From NCBI GenBank assembly GCA_905234645.1, contig CAJOIS010000004.1:1-64000 (forward strand): 64,000 nucleotides of DNA, in the 5' to 3' direction. The notes beneath the pieces were generated by a model that was not told where the DNA came from, did no database searches, and saw only the letters and a list, made by a program, of their open reading frames with translations. Of this stretch, positions 12,027-56,021 are shown piece after piece. Both the position numbers and the translations under genes were made by a program. The DNA comes from an uncultured Bacteroidales bacterium. Lineage in GTDB: Bacteria; Bacteroidota; Bacteroidia; Bacteroidales; F082. The stretch's first letter is position 1; every line of letters starts with the position of its first letter.

Positions 12027-12050
12027 GGTTCCTGAACCCGTCGAAGGACC
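12027..12050 (+). repeat. Dispersed CCTGAGCCTGTCGAAGG-type element
   Basis: The sequence GGTTCCTGAACCCGTCGAAG continues to GGACC, giving GGT/ACC ends. It belongs to the same family as 47182-47208 and as copies inside two genes (22197 and 53513). It lies 4 bases after the transglycosylase stop. Confidence 0.7.
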
Positions 12051-22133: not shown

Positions 22134-22784
22134 ATGAAGAAATACGCTTTATTTGTCATCGCTCTCGCCCTGCTTGTCAGCGGCTGCTGTAACAAAGATG
22201 CTTCGACAAGCTCAGCATCCACTAACGAAAACAAGACAGAAGAAACAACCATGAATACTACTATGAACGACTTACTGACGCGCCGCAGCATCCGCAGCTA
22301 CACCGACGAAGTGCCTCCGCACGAAGTCATCGAAGAAATCTGTGAGGCGGGCACTTACGCCCCAACGGGCATGAACCGTCAATCCCCCATCATCATCGCC
22401 GTCACCAACCGCGAGGTGCGCGACCAACTTAGCCGCCTCAACGCCGCAGTGTTCGGAAAAGACAATGACATGGATCCTTTCTATGGTGCCCCCGTGGTAC
22501 TTGTGGTCTTGGCCGATACCACTGCTGCCATGACCTGGCAAGAAGACGGCTCGCTCGTTATGGGTAACCTGCTTAACGCCGCCCATGCCAAAGGCCTTGG
22601 CTCCTGCTGGATCCATCGTGCCAAAGAGGTCTTTGAGACCGAAGAAGGCAAGGCTATCCTCGCCGGTCTCGGTATCGATACGGACAAGTATGTCGGCATT
22701 GGCAATTGCATCCTCGGCTATGTGAACGGCGACTATCCTGAAGCCAAGCCGCGCAAGGACAATTACGTTTATTGGATTGAATAA
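22134..22784 (+). CDS. Nitroreductase-family lipoprotein
   Basis: The 216-residue protein has a lipoprotein signal (MKKYALFVIALALLVSGC, Cys18), a short linker and a nitroreductase domain (about 45-210) starting LLTRRSIRSYTDEVPP, with the FMN-contact motifs GMNRQSP and GLGSCWIHRA. Nitroreductases use FMN and NAD(P)H, so an exported lipid-anchored member is odd; the lipobox may lead to outer- or inner-membrane display. The linker at residues 22-29 (DASTSSAS) is encoded by a palindromic repeat. The next gene starts 8 bases before its stop. Confidence 0.88.
   Translation: MKKYALFVIALALLVSGCCNKDASTSSASTNENKTEETTMNTTMNDLLTRRSIRSYTDEVPPHEVIEEICEAGTYAPTGMNRQSPIIIAVTNREVRDQLSRLNAAVFGKDNDMDPFYGAPVVLVVLADTTAAMTWQEDGSLVMGNLLNAAHAKGLGSCWIHRAKEVFETEEGKAILAGLGIDTDKYVGIGNCILGYVNGDYPEAKPRKDNYVYWIE
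22197..22219 (+). repeat. Palindromic element inside nitroreductase gene
   Basis: Arms GATGCT and AGCATC flank TCGACAAGCTC. This is the reverse complement of the CTGAGCTTGTCGAAG core also seen at 12027, 47182 and 53513. It is read in frame as residues 22-29 of the lipoprotein linker. Confidence 0.7.
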
Positions 22785-47181: not shown

Positions 47182-47208
47182 AGGGCCTCTGAGCCTGTCG
47201 AAGGGCCC
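47182..47208 (+). repeat. Dispersed CTGAGCCTGTCGAAGGG element
   Basis: AGGGCC (47182-47187) and GGGCCC (47203-47208) bracket TCTGAGCCTGTCGAA. It is the same family as 12027-12050, 22197-22219 and 53513-53537. Confidence 0.75.
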
Positions 47209-51705: not shown

Positions 51706-53031
51706 ATGGCCACTCGCGAACGCATAAAAAAAGGCTTTTCCAAGCTTCTCAAGGAAGAGAAGCTGAAGCTTATTGCCAACTACTTTGAGAACCCAGGCGA
51801 GGTCATCAGCCTGCTGAAAAGCTATTGGCACCCCGATTCGAAGCAACAGCAGCTCTTTGACGAGTTCAGCGAGAACACCATCACCAATTTCTTTATCCCT
51901 TACGGCATCTCACCCAACGTGACCATCAACGGCAAGGACTATGTCGTGCCCATGGTCATCGAAGAGAGCTCCGTTGTGGCGGCAGCCTCAGCGGCAGCCA
52001 AGTTCTGGGGCGATCGCGGCGGCTTCCATGCCGAGGTCATCGATACCCGCAAGGTCGGACAGGTGCATTTCGGCTGGAACGGCGACAAGGAACAACTCTT
52101 TGCCCTATTCCCGAAAATCGAGAAGCGCATGCTTGCCGACACCGATGAAATGACCGCCAAGATGCGAAAACGCGGCGGCGGCATCCTTGGGATGAAACTT
52201 ATTGATTACACCGCGCAAATTCCCGACTACTACCAAATCCGTGTCGAATTTGCTACTGGTGATGCTATGGGTGCCAACTTCATCAACTCCGTCTTGGAGC
52301 AGTTCGGCCATAGCCTTCAGGACTACTTCGCTGAACAGCAAGACCTGCCAGAAGAGCTCCGCAAGGTGGAGATCATCATGACCATCCTGTCGAACAACAC
52401 ACCCGACTGTCGCGTGAAGGTGTGGGTGGAGTGCCCTGTGGAACAGCTTGACGGCATCGACGAGCACCTCTCTGGTGCCGAATACGCCAAGAAATTCAAG
52501 AAGGCCGTCGACATCGCCCACATCGACACCGACCGCGCCACCACGCACAACAAAGGTATCTACAACGGCATCGACGCCGTGGTCCTAGCCACGGGCAACG
52601 ATTTCCGTGCAGTAGAGGCGGCTGGGCACACCTTCGCCTCGCGCAACGGGCATTATGAAAGCCTGTCGTCAGTGACGATAGAAAATGGCATCTTCCATTT
52701 CGAGTTGGAGGTACCGATGGCATTAGGTACGGTTGGTGGCCTAACCAGCCTGCACCCGCTGGCCAAAAAGACCTTGGAACTCTTGGGTAACCCCACCGCT
52801 CCCGAGCTGATGATGGTGGCCGCCACCATGGGTTTGGCCAACAACTTCTCTGCCGTGCGTTCCTTGACCACCAAAGGCATCCAAGCCGGTCACATGAAGA
52901 TGCATTTGAACAACATCCTCAATCAGCTGAATGCCAACGAGGAAGACAAGAAAAAGGCACGCGAATACTTCAAGGACAAGACCGTATCGTATGCAGCGGT
53001 AGAACAATTCTTAGACTCACTAAAAAAATGA
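51706..53031 (+). CDS. Hydroxymethylglutaryl-CoA reductase, class II
   Basis: The 441-residue protein has the class II HMG-CoA reductase core: MVIEESSVVAAASAAAKFW with the catalytic Glu, GDAMGANFINSVLEQ (the DAMGAN motif) and the catalytic His in GHMKMHLNN. It interconverts HMG-CoA and mevalonate; with mevalonate-pathway genes following, the biosynthetic direction is likely. It overlaps the GYDIA kinase by four bases. It opens the isoprenoid operon. Confidence 0.96.
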   Translation: MATRERIKKGFSKLLKEEKLKLIANYFENPGEVISLLKSYWHPDSKQQQLFDEFSENTITNFFIPYGISPNVTINGKDYVVPMVIEESSVVAAASAAAKFWGDRGGFHAEVIDTRKVGQVHFGWNGDKEQLFALFPKIEKRMLADTDEMTAKMRKRGGGILGMKLIDYTAQIPDYYQIRVEFATGDAMGANFINSVLEQFGHSLQDYFAEQQDLPEELRKVEIIMTILSNNTPDCRVKVWVECPVEQLDGIDEHLSGAEYAKKFKKAVDIAHIDTDRATTHNKGIYNGIDAVVLATGNDFRAVEAAGHTFASRNGHYESLSSVTIENGIFHFELEVPMALGTVGGLTSLHPLAKKTLELLGNPTAPELMMVAATMGLANNFSAVRSLTTKGIQAGHMKMHLNNILNQLNANEEDKKKAREYFKDKTVSYAAVEQFLDSLKK

Positions 53032-53960
53032 GCCGCTATTCTTCCCATGGCAAATTTCTTTTGACTGGCGAATACCTCGTCCTAAAAGGGGCGTTGGCTT
53101 TAGCATTGCCATTGAAATATGGGCAAACATTGTCGGTAGAGACGTGCCATGGCGCGTCTCTACAATGGAATGCATACCAACCCGACGGTCTTTGGTTTTC
53201 CGTTACCTTGAATCCAGAAAAACTAGAAATCATTGATTGCAACGATCCATCCAAGGCCGAAAAACTGGCCCAAATTCTGAAGGCTGTCAAACAACTGAAT
53301 CCCACTGCGTTTAAAAACGGCCTACATTTTGAGACCCGTTTGGATTTTGACCCCAACTGGGGCCTCGGCAGTAGCTCCACCCTGATTGCCAACCTTGCAC
53401 AATGGGCGAATGTCAATCCTTACGAATTGTTGAGACTGACCTTCGGCGGCTCTGGTTACGACATCGCCAGCGCCACAGCGGAAGGACCGATTTATTATCA
53501 AGTAAAAACCGAGGTCCCTGAGCCTGTCGAAGAGCCGACCCCGATAGTTCGACCTATCGATTTCCATCCCTCTTTCGCTGACCACCTTTTCTTCATCTAC
53601 CAAGGCAAGAAGCAAAGCTCTTCCAAAGAAATCAAGGCTTTTTTGGAAAAAGCTAATCCTATTGATCTACAAAAAGACATAGAAGCCGTTTCGGAAATCA
53701 GCCGTGCCGTGCCGAAATGTGAAAGTCTGGACGAGTTCGGCCTCTTGATGCAATGCCATGAGCGCATCATTGCCCGTTGCATTGGGCAGGAGCCAGTTCA
53801 AAAACGCTTCCCCAACTTTGAGGGCGTCTTGAAGTCTTTGGGGGCATGGGGCGGTGATTTCATTTTGGCCGCGACGGAGTGGCCAAAGAATCAAGTGAGA
53901 GAATACTTCAAAGAAAAAGGTTTGGAGGTGATTTTCGGGTTTAAAGAATTGGTATTGTGA
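53028..53960 (+). CDS. GYDIA-family GHMP kinase, probable phosphomevalonate kinase
   Basis: The 310-residue protein carries the GHMP motifs HGKFLLTGEYLV, WGLGSSSTLIANLA and the family tag GSGYDIASATA. In Bacteroidetes this family sits beside mevalonate genes and may supply the phosphomevalonate kinase step missing from the cluster; this is an inference. Its DNA contains two dispersed repeats read in frame, at residues 37-45 (VETCHGASL) and 162-170 (EVPEPVEEP), so both loops probably come from insertions. It overlaps HMG-CoA reductase. Confidence 0.88.
   Translation: MSRYSSHGKFLLTGEYLVLKGALALALPLKYGQTLSVETCHGASLQWNAYQPDGLWFSVTLNPEKLEIIDCNDPSKAEKLAQILKAVKQLNPTAFKNGLHFETRLDFDPNWGLGSSSTLIANLAQWANVNPYELLRLTFGGSGYDIASATAEGPIYYQVKTEVPEPVEEPTPIVRPIDFHPSFADHLFFIYQGKKQSSSKEIKAFLEKANPIDLQKDIEAVSEISRAVPKCESLDEFGLLMQCHERIIARCIGQEPVQKRFPNFEGVLKSLGAWGGDFILAATEWPKNQVREYFKEKGLEVIFGFKELVL
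53136..53163 (+). repeat. Palindromic element GTAGAGACG inside kinase gene
   Basis: GTAGAGACG and CGTCTCTAC flank TGCCATGGCG, making a 28-base palindrome with one mismatch. It is translated in frame as residues 37-45 of the GYDIA kinase. Confidence 0.78.
53513..53537 (+). repeat. CCTGAGCCTGTCGAAG element inside kinase gene
   Basis: GGTCCCTGAGCCTGTCGAAG then AGCC shares the core with the intergenic copy at 47182. It is translated as PEPVEE within the GYDIA kinase. Confidence 0.78.
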
Positions 53961-55062: not shown

Positions 55063-56021
55063 TGAAAGAGCGTTACTATAGCAAAGTTATCCTTTTCGGC
55101 GAGTATTCGATGATTTTCGACAGCACTGCCTTAATGGTGCCTTTGAAGCAGTTCTCGGCGCAATGGCGGTTTGCCTCGTCGTTGGCAATACAAGGTGTGG
55201 CCGCTTCCAATGCTAGTTTACAACGTTTTTCGGACTATCTTTCCACTTTGGATATCATAAACCTTTTTGATTTGCAGCGGTTTGACCACGATTTGCAGCA
55301 CAATCTCTTTTTGGATTCCAATGTGCCTTCGGGCTACGGATTGGGAAGCTCGGGCACCTTGGTGGCTGCTGTTTATGATGCCTATACCAAGCAGAAAACC
55401 GATGATTATTTGAAGCTTAAGGAAATCTTTGGCAAGATGGAGAGCTATTTCCATGGCAGCAGTTCGGGCATAGACCCCCTGCAATGCTACATGGGTCAGC
55501 CTTTCAAAATCACGCCAAAGGGATTGGAAATCCTAAATGATGAGTTTTTAAACAAGGATATCCATATCTGTCTAATCGACACGAAAATCAAAAGCAACAC
55601 CAAGCCGTTGGTCAACCATTTCAAGCAGCAGAGAGAGAATCCCGACTTCTTGAACCGCTTCCAAACGGAATACTTACCTTGTGTCAAGACTTGTATTGAT
55701 ACGATGATTTCTGGTGATAATGATTTGTTTTTCAATTCATTGAAGCAGCTTACCAAAGGTCAATTGGAATTCCTTCGCCTGATGATTACCGACAACACTT
55801 TGGCCTTATTTACGACCGATTTCGACTTTAATTTCGGCGTAAAAATCTCGGGCTCGGGCGGTGGCGGTTATGTTTTGGGCTTCACGGACGATATGGAAAA
55901 GGCCAATGAATTATTAAGCCTCCCATGTCATTCCAGCGTGGGCACACAGGGATGGCGGGAAATGCCCAGCATTCGACGTAGTCAATCTATGGGAGGCGGT
56001 TTTGATGTTATTTGGCTCTAA
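55062..56021 (+). CDS. Mevalonate kinase-like GHMP kinase
   Basis: The 319-residue protein begins MKERYYSKVILFGEYSMIFD and has PSGYGLGSSGTLVAAVYDAY (ATP loop) and VKISGSGGGGYVLGF. With the GYDIA kinase and MvaD it completes the mevalonate steps in the operon; mevalonate kinase is the likely role, with phosphomevalonate kinase the alternative. The start overlaps the mvaD stop by one base. Confidence 0.85.
   Translation: MKERYYSKVILFGEYSMIFDSTALMVPLKQFSAQWRFASSLAIQGVAASNASLQRFSDYLSTLDIINLFDLQRFDHDLQHNLFLDSNVPSGYGLGSSGTLVAAVYDAYTKQKTDDYLKLKEIFGKMESYFHGSSSGIDPLQCYMGQPFKITPKGLEILNDEFLNKDIHICLIDTKIKSNTKPLVNHFKQQRENPDFLNRFQTEYLPCVKTCIDTMISGDNDLFFNSLKQLTKGQLEFLRLMITDNTLALFTTDFDFNFGVKISGSGGGGYVLGFTDDMEKANELLSLPCHSSVGTQGWREMPSIRRSQSMGGGFDVIWL

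Follow-up and report, generated by a model that had tools for sequence, protein, structure and literature searches.

A translated double-foot REP palindrome of a Bacteroidales RAYT subfamily, with cores that differ between species as if overwritten in place

A palindrome read as protein

The window that we analysed is a stretch of 64,000 nucleotides from the draft genome of an uncultured, gut-type Bacteroidales bacterium. It contains a gene for a GHMP kinase of the GYDIA family, and within the reading frame of that gene lies a 28-nt palindrome, GTAGAGACG-TGCCATGGCG-CGTCTCTAC, at 53136-53163 of the plus strand. The features of the locus are as follows.

51706..53031, plus strand: HMG-CoA reductase-like gene, overlapping the start of the kinase gene (TIGR00532, 244.3 bits, below the cut-off of 259.95)
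53028..53960, plus strand: GYDIA-family GHMP kinase of 310 aa, the host gene of the palindrome (NCBIfam GHMP_GYDIA, 336.7 bits, cut-off 225)
53136..53163, plus strand: 28-nt double-foot palindrome (REP) with arms GTAGAGACG and CGTCTCTAC and core TGCCATGGCG, codons 37-46 (VETCHGASL and the first base of Gln)
53136..53144, plus strand: left arm with the GTAG foot (V E T)
53145..53154, plus strand: 10-nt exchangeable core (C H G and the first base of the Ala codon), with other self-complementary cores in other species
53155..53163, plus strand: right arm ending in CTAC (the rest of the Ala codon, S L, and the first base of Gln)
53517..53533, plus strand: second dispersed repeat in the kinase gene, CCTGAGCCTGTCGAAGA (CCTGAGCCTGTCGAAG), in frame at site B; absent from L071 and L086, with a different repeat-like stretch in L092 and L093
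53983..55062, plus strand: diphosphomevalonate decarboxylase-like gene (TIGR01240, 169.7 bits, below the cut-off of 171.35)
55065..56021, plus strand: mevalonate kinase-like gene (TIGR00549, 99.4 bits, below the cut-off of 163.05)

All three neighbours of the kinase gene score under their NCBIfam cut-offs, two of them narrowly so, and the draft genome to which the window belongs (2.59 Mb in 77 contigs, 83.7% complete) gave one match to the kinase. An earlier note on this DNA had reported the palindrome inside the kinase gene, and we confirm it: 13 of its 14 base pairs are complementary, the single T.G mismatch lying in the core, and its start coincides exactly with codon 37 of the open reading frame 53028-53960, which reads V E T C H G A S L (Q) from that point. 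The sequence GTAGAGACG occurs twice in the 64,000-nt window, once for each arm; 100 shuffles gave a mean of 0.14 occurrences, with two of them reaching 2. The repeat at site B belongs to a family with 63 matches in the same genome at one mismatch or fewer and none for its control. Two more near-copies of this CCTGAGCC-GTCGAAGG repeat lie in the window, at 12031-12047 and 47188-47204, and other repeat motifs have single matches there at 22203 and 59363.

The palindrome is one of many. Exact arm pairs at a spacing of 4-20 nt number 40 in the genome of the window and none in the reversed-pattern control; at the exact spacing, with up to three mismatches allowed, the figures are 74 and 1. The inner 9-11 nt vary among the copies, and among the matches listed the cores are mostly fully or nearly self-complementary. 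We found the family in 94 of 99 genomes of the genus and in 41 of 296 genomes across the phylum, the genome of the window included.

Eleven of the 40 exact copies are translated in frame, in nine ORFs that are backed by Pfam, NCBIfam or conservation. Four of these hosts carry a T9SS C-terminal sorting domain (a subtilase, a 427-aa protein and two BspA-type proteins); the others are the kinase, a protein that barely passes the threshold for a sorting domain, an EamA-type transporter and, with two copies each, a U32 peptidase and a 421-aa isomerase-like protein. The reading is VET....SL. in nine copies and xRD....VST in two, and the third frame has a TAG stop. This count leaves aside ORFs in L051 and L063, which have no Pfam match and look by eye like spurious antisense frames, together with short ORFs in L003, L011 and elsewhere; the other 29 of the 40 copies have no gene assigned. 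The earlier view of the palindrome as a type normally seen between genes is incomplete, since it does not describe the copies in the nine probable genes. The exact 28-mer of the kinase also occurs outside ORFs (L067). The genes flanked by clustered palindromes in L062 and L064 of the same genome look ordinary by eye.

In the four sorting domains the palindrome starts 11 residues past the first matched residue. The domains (L049, L054 and L065, all in the genome of the window) have it at the same relative place with two different cores. The U32 peptidase gene (L060:1912-3912) holds three family palindromes in a single open frame, one of them with one arm mismatch, and the same frame has two stretches that resemble two other repeat families.

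Arms and cores at orthologous sites

The isomerase-like gene has two palindrome sites, which we compared in 37 sequences, two rows at contig ends (L155 and L157) having been dropped and refetched as L182 and L181. A site was counted as filled when its palindrome was in phase and had no more than four arm mismatches, and palindromes outside those limits were dropped from the site comparison. Of the 37 rows, 21 have a filled site 1 and 26 a filled site 2, and in L169, L171, L172, L174 and L175 site 1 is cleanly empty. A filled site 1 consists of the 28-mer and a filler of 5 nt (L167), 8 nt (15 main-clade rows) or 11 nt (L147 and L148), a net insert of 33, 36 or 39 nt from which a target-site duplication, as expected of a MITE of a classical insertion sequence, could not be read off. 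Copies were picked by their arms, at up to four or five mismatches, and the conservation of arms and codons is to that extent partly by construction; a single clade is the best judge. In the clade of L147-L165 with L181 and L182 (support 98/96), 17 of the 19 rows carry the palindrome at site 1, and L163 and L165 have lost it. The arms are exact in 14 of these 17 rows and have one or two mismatches in the other three, and the codons that flank them vary.

When the rows are compared in pairs at site 1, the upstream flank differs on average by 0.25, the arms by 0.06 and the core by 0.69, and 96 of 105 core pairs are complementary (shuffles: mean 35.2, maximum 61). The corresponding differences at site 2 are 0.28, 0.15 and 0.64, with 110 of 130 core pairs complementary and a shuffle maximum of 70. 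The arms use codons that these genes otherwise seldom choose among synonyms: GTA supplies 53 of 55 Val codons inside palindromes and 133 of 1519 outside, CTA supplies 61 of 69 Leu codons inside and 146 of 2926 outside, and the counts for TCT are 65 of 68 inside and 143 of 1613 outside, the inside counts being in each case partly by construction.

The extent of change in the core is illustrated by L159 and L161, which differ outside their palindromes at 101 of 1152 bases (8.8%). At three palindromes 10, 10 and 4 of the 10 core bases differ between them, and 1 of 54 arm bases is changed. With cores grouped into classes at two differences or fewer, 31 of the 47 copies at both sites of the isomerase gene have a core class unlike that of their nearest relative. 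On the gene tree, in which several forks are weak, the core class changes 14 times at site 1 and 16 times at site 2, where shuffled labels give means of 14.9 and 16.6. A core thus does not stay with its gene for long, although the site does; in the two pairs of genes that are less than 5% apart the core class is common to each pair.

The two sites of the same isomerase gene have similar cores in 4 of 19 genes, which is not significant against a shuffled mean of 2.56. Arm mismatches average 1.31 in copies with a core like that of the nearest relative and 0.97 in those with an unlike core (p 0.43), and because the two groups are alike in this respect, replacement of the whole palindrome and replacement of the core only are not separated. 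Among the matches listed (50 of 67 in the case of G110), five of the six isomerase-gene cores of genomes G101 and G110 are found elsewhere in the same genome as well. Two similar genes of G110, L218 and L219, are 73% identical over 1069 nt; the cores of their first palindromes differ (CGCCATGGCA vs CGGCGCGCCA) and that of the second is common to both. Different cores are also seen at similar places of the U32 gene, mostly in the other frame, in a comparison that is not a site-by-site alignment.

For the kinase we compared 43 sequences (38 of 49 loci and five others), the distant or partial homologues L106-L116 having been dropped before counting. A palindrome with no more than four arm mismatches occupies residues 37-46, which we call site A, in 19 of the 43, and its cores are TGCCATGGCG, GTKTGCACAC, TTTCCTGAAA, TTTCAGGAAA and CACCATGGCA. 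The mean pairwise difference here is 0.25 in the flank, 0.17 in the arms and 0.62 in the core, and 72 of 95 core pairs are complementary (shuffle maximum 61). On a tree of two locus genes, the columns of a third having been removed as too gappy, and with several weak forks, the presence of the palindrome accounts for four changes and the state of the site for 15. Site A holds two palindromes and a short spacer in L083, L084 and L091, where relatives have one, and the collapse of such a double palindrome could be a route to a new core.

A mobile element captured by the kinase, as the earlier note had it, was expected to show as a gap at residues 37-45 in the homologues. There is no such gap. 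In species without the palindrome the position is taken by loops such as VEKLESDNHQLHW, which exceed VETCHGASLQW by two codons, and the loop from V to W is typically 13 residues long in relatives without the palindrome and 11 in those with it. With alternative loops in that position and no gap, the palindrome has taken the place of a longer loop and simple insertion into the kinase is ruled out; of the captured element there remains a repeat that is dispersed and translated, and that replaces an existing loop. Nor do the homologues that lack the palindrome encode the same residues by unrelated DNA: they differ there, though several share the initial V-E. At site A of L022 (genome G072) there is a different repeat-like stretch, RHCEEHSDKAI. 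A family palindrome lies near kinase residue 100 of L022 in the third frame, with its TAG changed.

What the earlier note overlooked is the main feature of these sites, namely that orthologous in-frame positions keep their arms and swap a self-complementary core between species. Resident copies differ from one species to another as if they had been overwritten: arms, frame and the length of 28 nt stay and the core changes.

The RAYT subfamily associated with the palindrome

The Pfam Y1_Tnp model found 33 RAYT loci, and in the 107 kb that they cover there is one palindrome, about 1.3 kb from the gene, a result that is unchanged at up to three mismatches. These Pfam-found RAYTs are flanked by other short repeats. 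In many of them (L046 and L047 of the genome of the window; L186-L215) short repeats such as CCCCTACGGGG, GGCCGTTAGGCC and GACGCAGTCGGCG are common to both flanks. Several REP-like systems probably coexist in the genus.

The RAYT subfamily that accompanies the palindrome was located by reading between clustered palindromes in G110, followed by a search with the protein found there. The G110 cluster contains a short gene for a Y1-type transposase that falls below the Pfam cut-off; one palindrome starts 46 nt upstream of it, another is in frame inside it, just past the NHLH motif, and two more, with 3 and 1 arm mismatches, lie downstream. The Y1_Tnp model gives 19.1 bits to L217 and between 16.4 and 24.9 bits to five other members of the subfamily, one of which is above the cut-off of 23. 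The protein search yielded matches in 71 of 98 genomes of the genus.

Among 30 loci of the subfamily that were fetched, 26 have a palindrome with up to three arm mismatches inside the RAYT gene or within 300 nt of it, and 15 have one with exact arms; the reversed control gave two matches in the same loci. By an equal rule the other, Pfam-found RAYT loci gave 0 of 33, whether exact arms or up to three mismatches were asked for. At up to three arm mismatches, palindromes lie upstream within 300 nt in 25 of the 30 loci, inside the gene in open frame in 22 and downstream in 16. Those inside the genes amount to 30 copies in 22 genes, in phase 0 or 1 and never in phase 2; L222 has a stop elsewhere. 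Added to the presence of the same 28-mer elsewhere in the genome and to the exact or near-exact arms at the isomerase site, the flanking of RAYT genes by the family bears out the proposal of a repeated, mobile-type palindrome that is read as protein.

Within a RAYT locus the cores largely agree, 102 of 123 pairs having two differences or fewer (shuffles: mean 13.8, maximum 24); the other 21 pairs have more than two, and the downstream copies of L220, L221 and L226 differ. On the RAYT tree, with core classes labelled by hand (one class joining two cores) and several weak forks, the core class makes 12 changes for 13 classes in 26 rows, which is the minimum possible; the shuffled minimum is 17. 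The core looks like a lasting property of the RAYT lineage and a passing property of the genomic site. The RAYT locus L243 of the genome of the window, one of three matches in a draft that is 83.7% complete, has the core CAATGCTTTG, unlike the kinase core TGCCATGGCG, and most of the 40 copies in that genome have cores other than that of L243.

Explanations and precedents

The palindrome is dispersed, is tied to a RAYT subfamily and is read in frame at constant positions of several proteins. We think it probable that it is a double-foot REP of this RAYT (TnpA-REP) subfamily and that resident copies are overwritten in place by other REP classes, a process that RAYTs probably drive; the overwriting of REP by REP is something that we infer between species, on draft metagenome assemblies. 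The most likely route by which one copy replaces another would be for the RAYT to cleave the DNA and transfer the strand at the GTAG/CTAC feet. A palindrome with two feet would offer a foot to the RAYT at either end, and a hairpin released or copied by one RAYT might be joined into a resident palindrome that has been opened at its feet, the resident being replaced and its flanks left untouched. Each RAYT lineage would in this way stamp its own core onto resident palindromes. Such a replacement of hairpins fits the data in that arms, length and frame are constant, the core is changed and the flanks are unchanged. The unlike cores of L243 and the kinase, and the cores that disagree within some RAYT loci, count against it. 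The TnpA-REP enzymes that have been studied are described as cutting and joining single-stranded DNA, using GTAG and recognising features of the REP loop or stem (PMC8266576). The subfamily RAYT would be expected to bind and cleave the palindrome.

The main rival is gene conversion, or template switching in replication, between dispersed palindromes, with the 9-nt arms as the homology and no part played by the RAYT. A role for gene conversion in REP evolution was raised as a question in 1988 (Higgins et al.). The in-frame cores occur for the most part elsewhere in the same genome (five of six in the two genomes already mentioned, among the matches listed), and neighbouring flanks were not exchanged along with the core. 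Arms of 9 nt are very short for RecA recombination. Conversion alone also does not account for two observations, that the core class follows the lineage of the RAYT and that most copies in a RAYT locus agree in it, and we regard it as unlikely. We rate somewhat lower the view that each lineage lost its earlier copies and then independently received different REPs at shared hot spots. Empty sites in some species and the loss of site 1 in L163 and L165 agree with it, and Di Nocera et al. (2013, PMC3733652) describe two Xanthomonas species whose recB genes hold different REPs at roughly the same position. Against it, 15 of the 17 filled main-clade rows have an 8-nt filler on the right-hand side of the palindrome at isomerase site 1; this filler looks homologous, while the cores beside it differ, and from this we conclude that the site was probably filled once and then rewritten.

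Point mutation in the core with hairpin-templated correction of the other half would leave cores with one or more unpaired positions, and such cores exist, but jumps of 10 bases in 10 between genes that differ by 8.8% elsewhere, and the recurrence of the same cores in unrelated genes, make this very improbable. An assembly artefact, in which metagenome assemblers joined or blended copies of the repeat, is less credible still: the close relatives with named records are indeed metagenome-assembled or uncultured genomes, but an ordinary sequencing read is longer than the repeat, the sequence on either side remains that of the gene, the frames are open in nearly all rows and the records of several projects agree. 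Convergence of the protein, with selection on the V-E-T...S-L-Q residues and palindromic DNA as a by-product, would suit the shared peptide frame at one place in four sorting domains, but we give it virtually no credence in view of the exact 28-mer outside ORFs, the second frame (RD...VST) used in other genes and the rare synonymous codons, such as CTA, of the arms.

Returning to the overwriting of resident REPs, we expect the peptide V-E-T-x4-S-L-Q to be tolerated as a strand-turn-strand in exposed beta-hairpins, a placement that is based on the sequence pattern and on a distant alignment with 1vis, a mevalonate kinase entry, and the peptide is probably neutral for the enzyme. More tentatively, and as a possibility that we would not yet call probable, resident in-frame REPs may serve as docking sites at which RAYTs catalyse cassette exchange at shared feet, competing lineages overwriting the cores in ordinary enzymes. 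If this were so, hairpin turns would be drawn from a small vocabulary of interchangeable tetrapeptides and would evolve much more rapidly than the remainder of the protein. Where its flanks are conserved, a coding site can act as a recorder of events in which the whole palindromic core is replaced and the arms, frame and flanks stay, and such sites make replacement testable in vitro and in culture. These comparisons suggest that selfish DNA can exchange an enzyme loop over and over and be tolerated, apparently also in an enzyme of the mevalonate pathway.

The spread of REPs has been called poorly understood (PMC8266576). In-frame REPs and REPs inside RAYT genes have already been published; exchange of the core in place at orthologous in-frame sites of ordinary genes is new here, in that we found no description of it in the openly accessible article text that was covered. 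A literature search for the arm sequence itself gave unrelated papers among the 20 of 313 matches listed. The palindromic elements of Rickettsia are likewise repeats in frame in unrelated proteins, but they are about 105-150 bp long, unlike the 28 nt found here, and a RAYT partner of such a kind is not reported in the available text of the sources (PMC10969869, PMC2229807, PMC3733652). The intragenic GTAG/CGTC REPs of Di Nocera et al. (PMC3733652) are also short palindromes inside functional ORFs, with Bacteroidetes named as hosts of CGTC repeats. The GTAG REPs described there have an unpaired foot at one end, whereas here GTAG pairs with CTAC and both ends are footed. The REP orthoswitch of Pseudomonas and Stenotrophomonas, in which orthologous RAYTs have different classes of flanking REP and the classes of RAYT and REP correspond, resembles our finding, but it concerns REPs that flank RAYTs and here the switch is at fixed sites inside ordinary genes; its mechanism was called speculative (PMC3686654).

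Another close precedent is TnpA-REP subclass 2.4, for which double-foot REPs have been described, as have REPs that lie inside the transposase gene and preserve its frame, with Bacteroidetes among the hosts (PMC6006769). As in that subclass, there are many dispersed copies, copies flank the tnpA-REP gene and an in-frame REP lies within it after the HuH motif. The available text of the account mentions REPs in unrelated genes, and it does not mention exchange of the core in place at orthologous in-frame sites. The subclass is defined by a 5' GT[AG]G and a 3' C[TC]AC on one hairpin, which the GTAG and complementary CTAC ends of our palindrome match, and by the motifs NH[IFV]H, WQ and YIxNNP. In the subfamily described here the motifs judged by eye to be common are NH[LVI]H, WQ and YIxNN; the HuH motif often has L, and a final P is usually missing.
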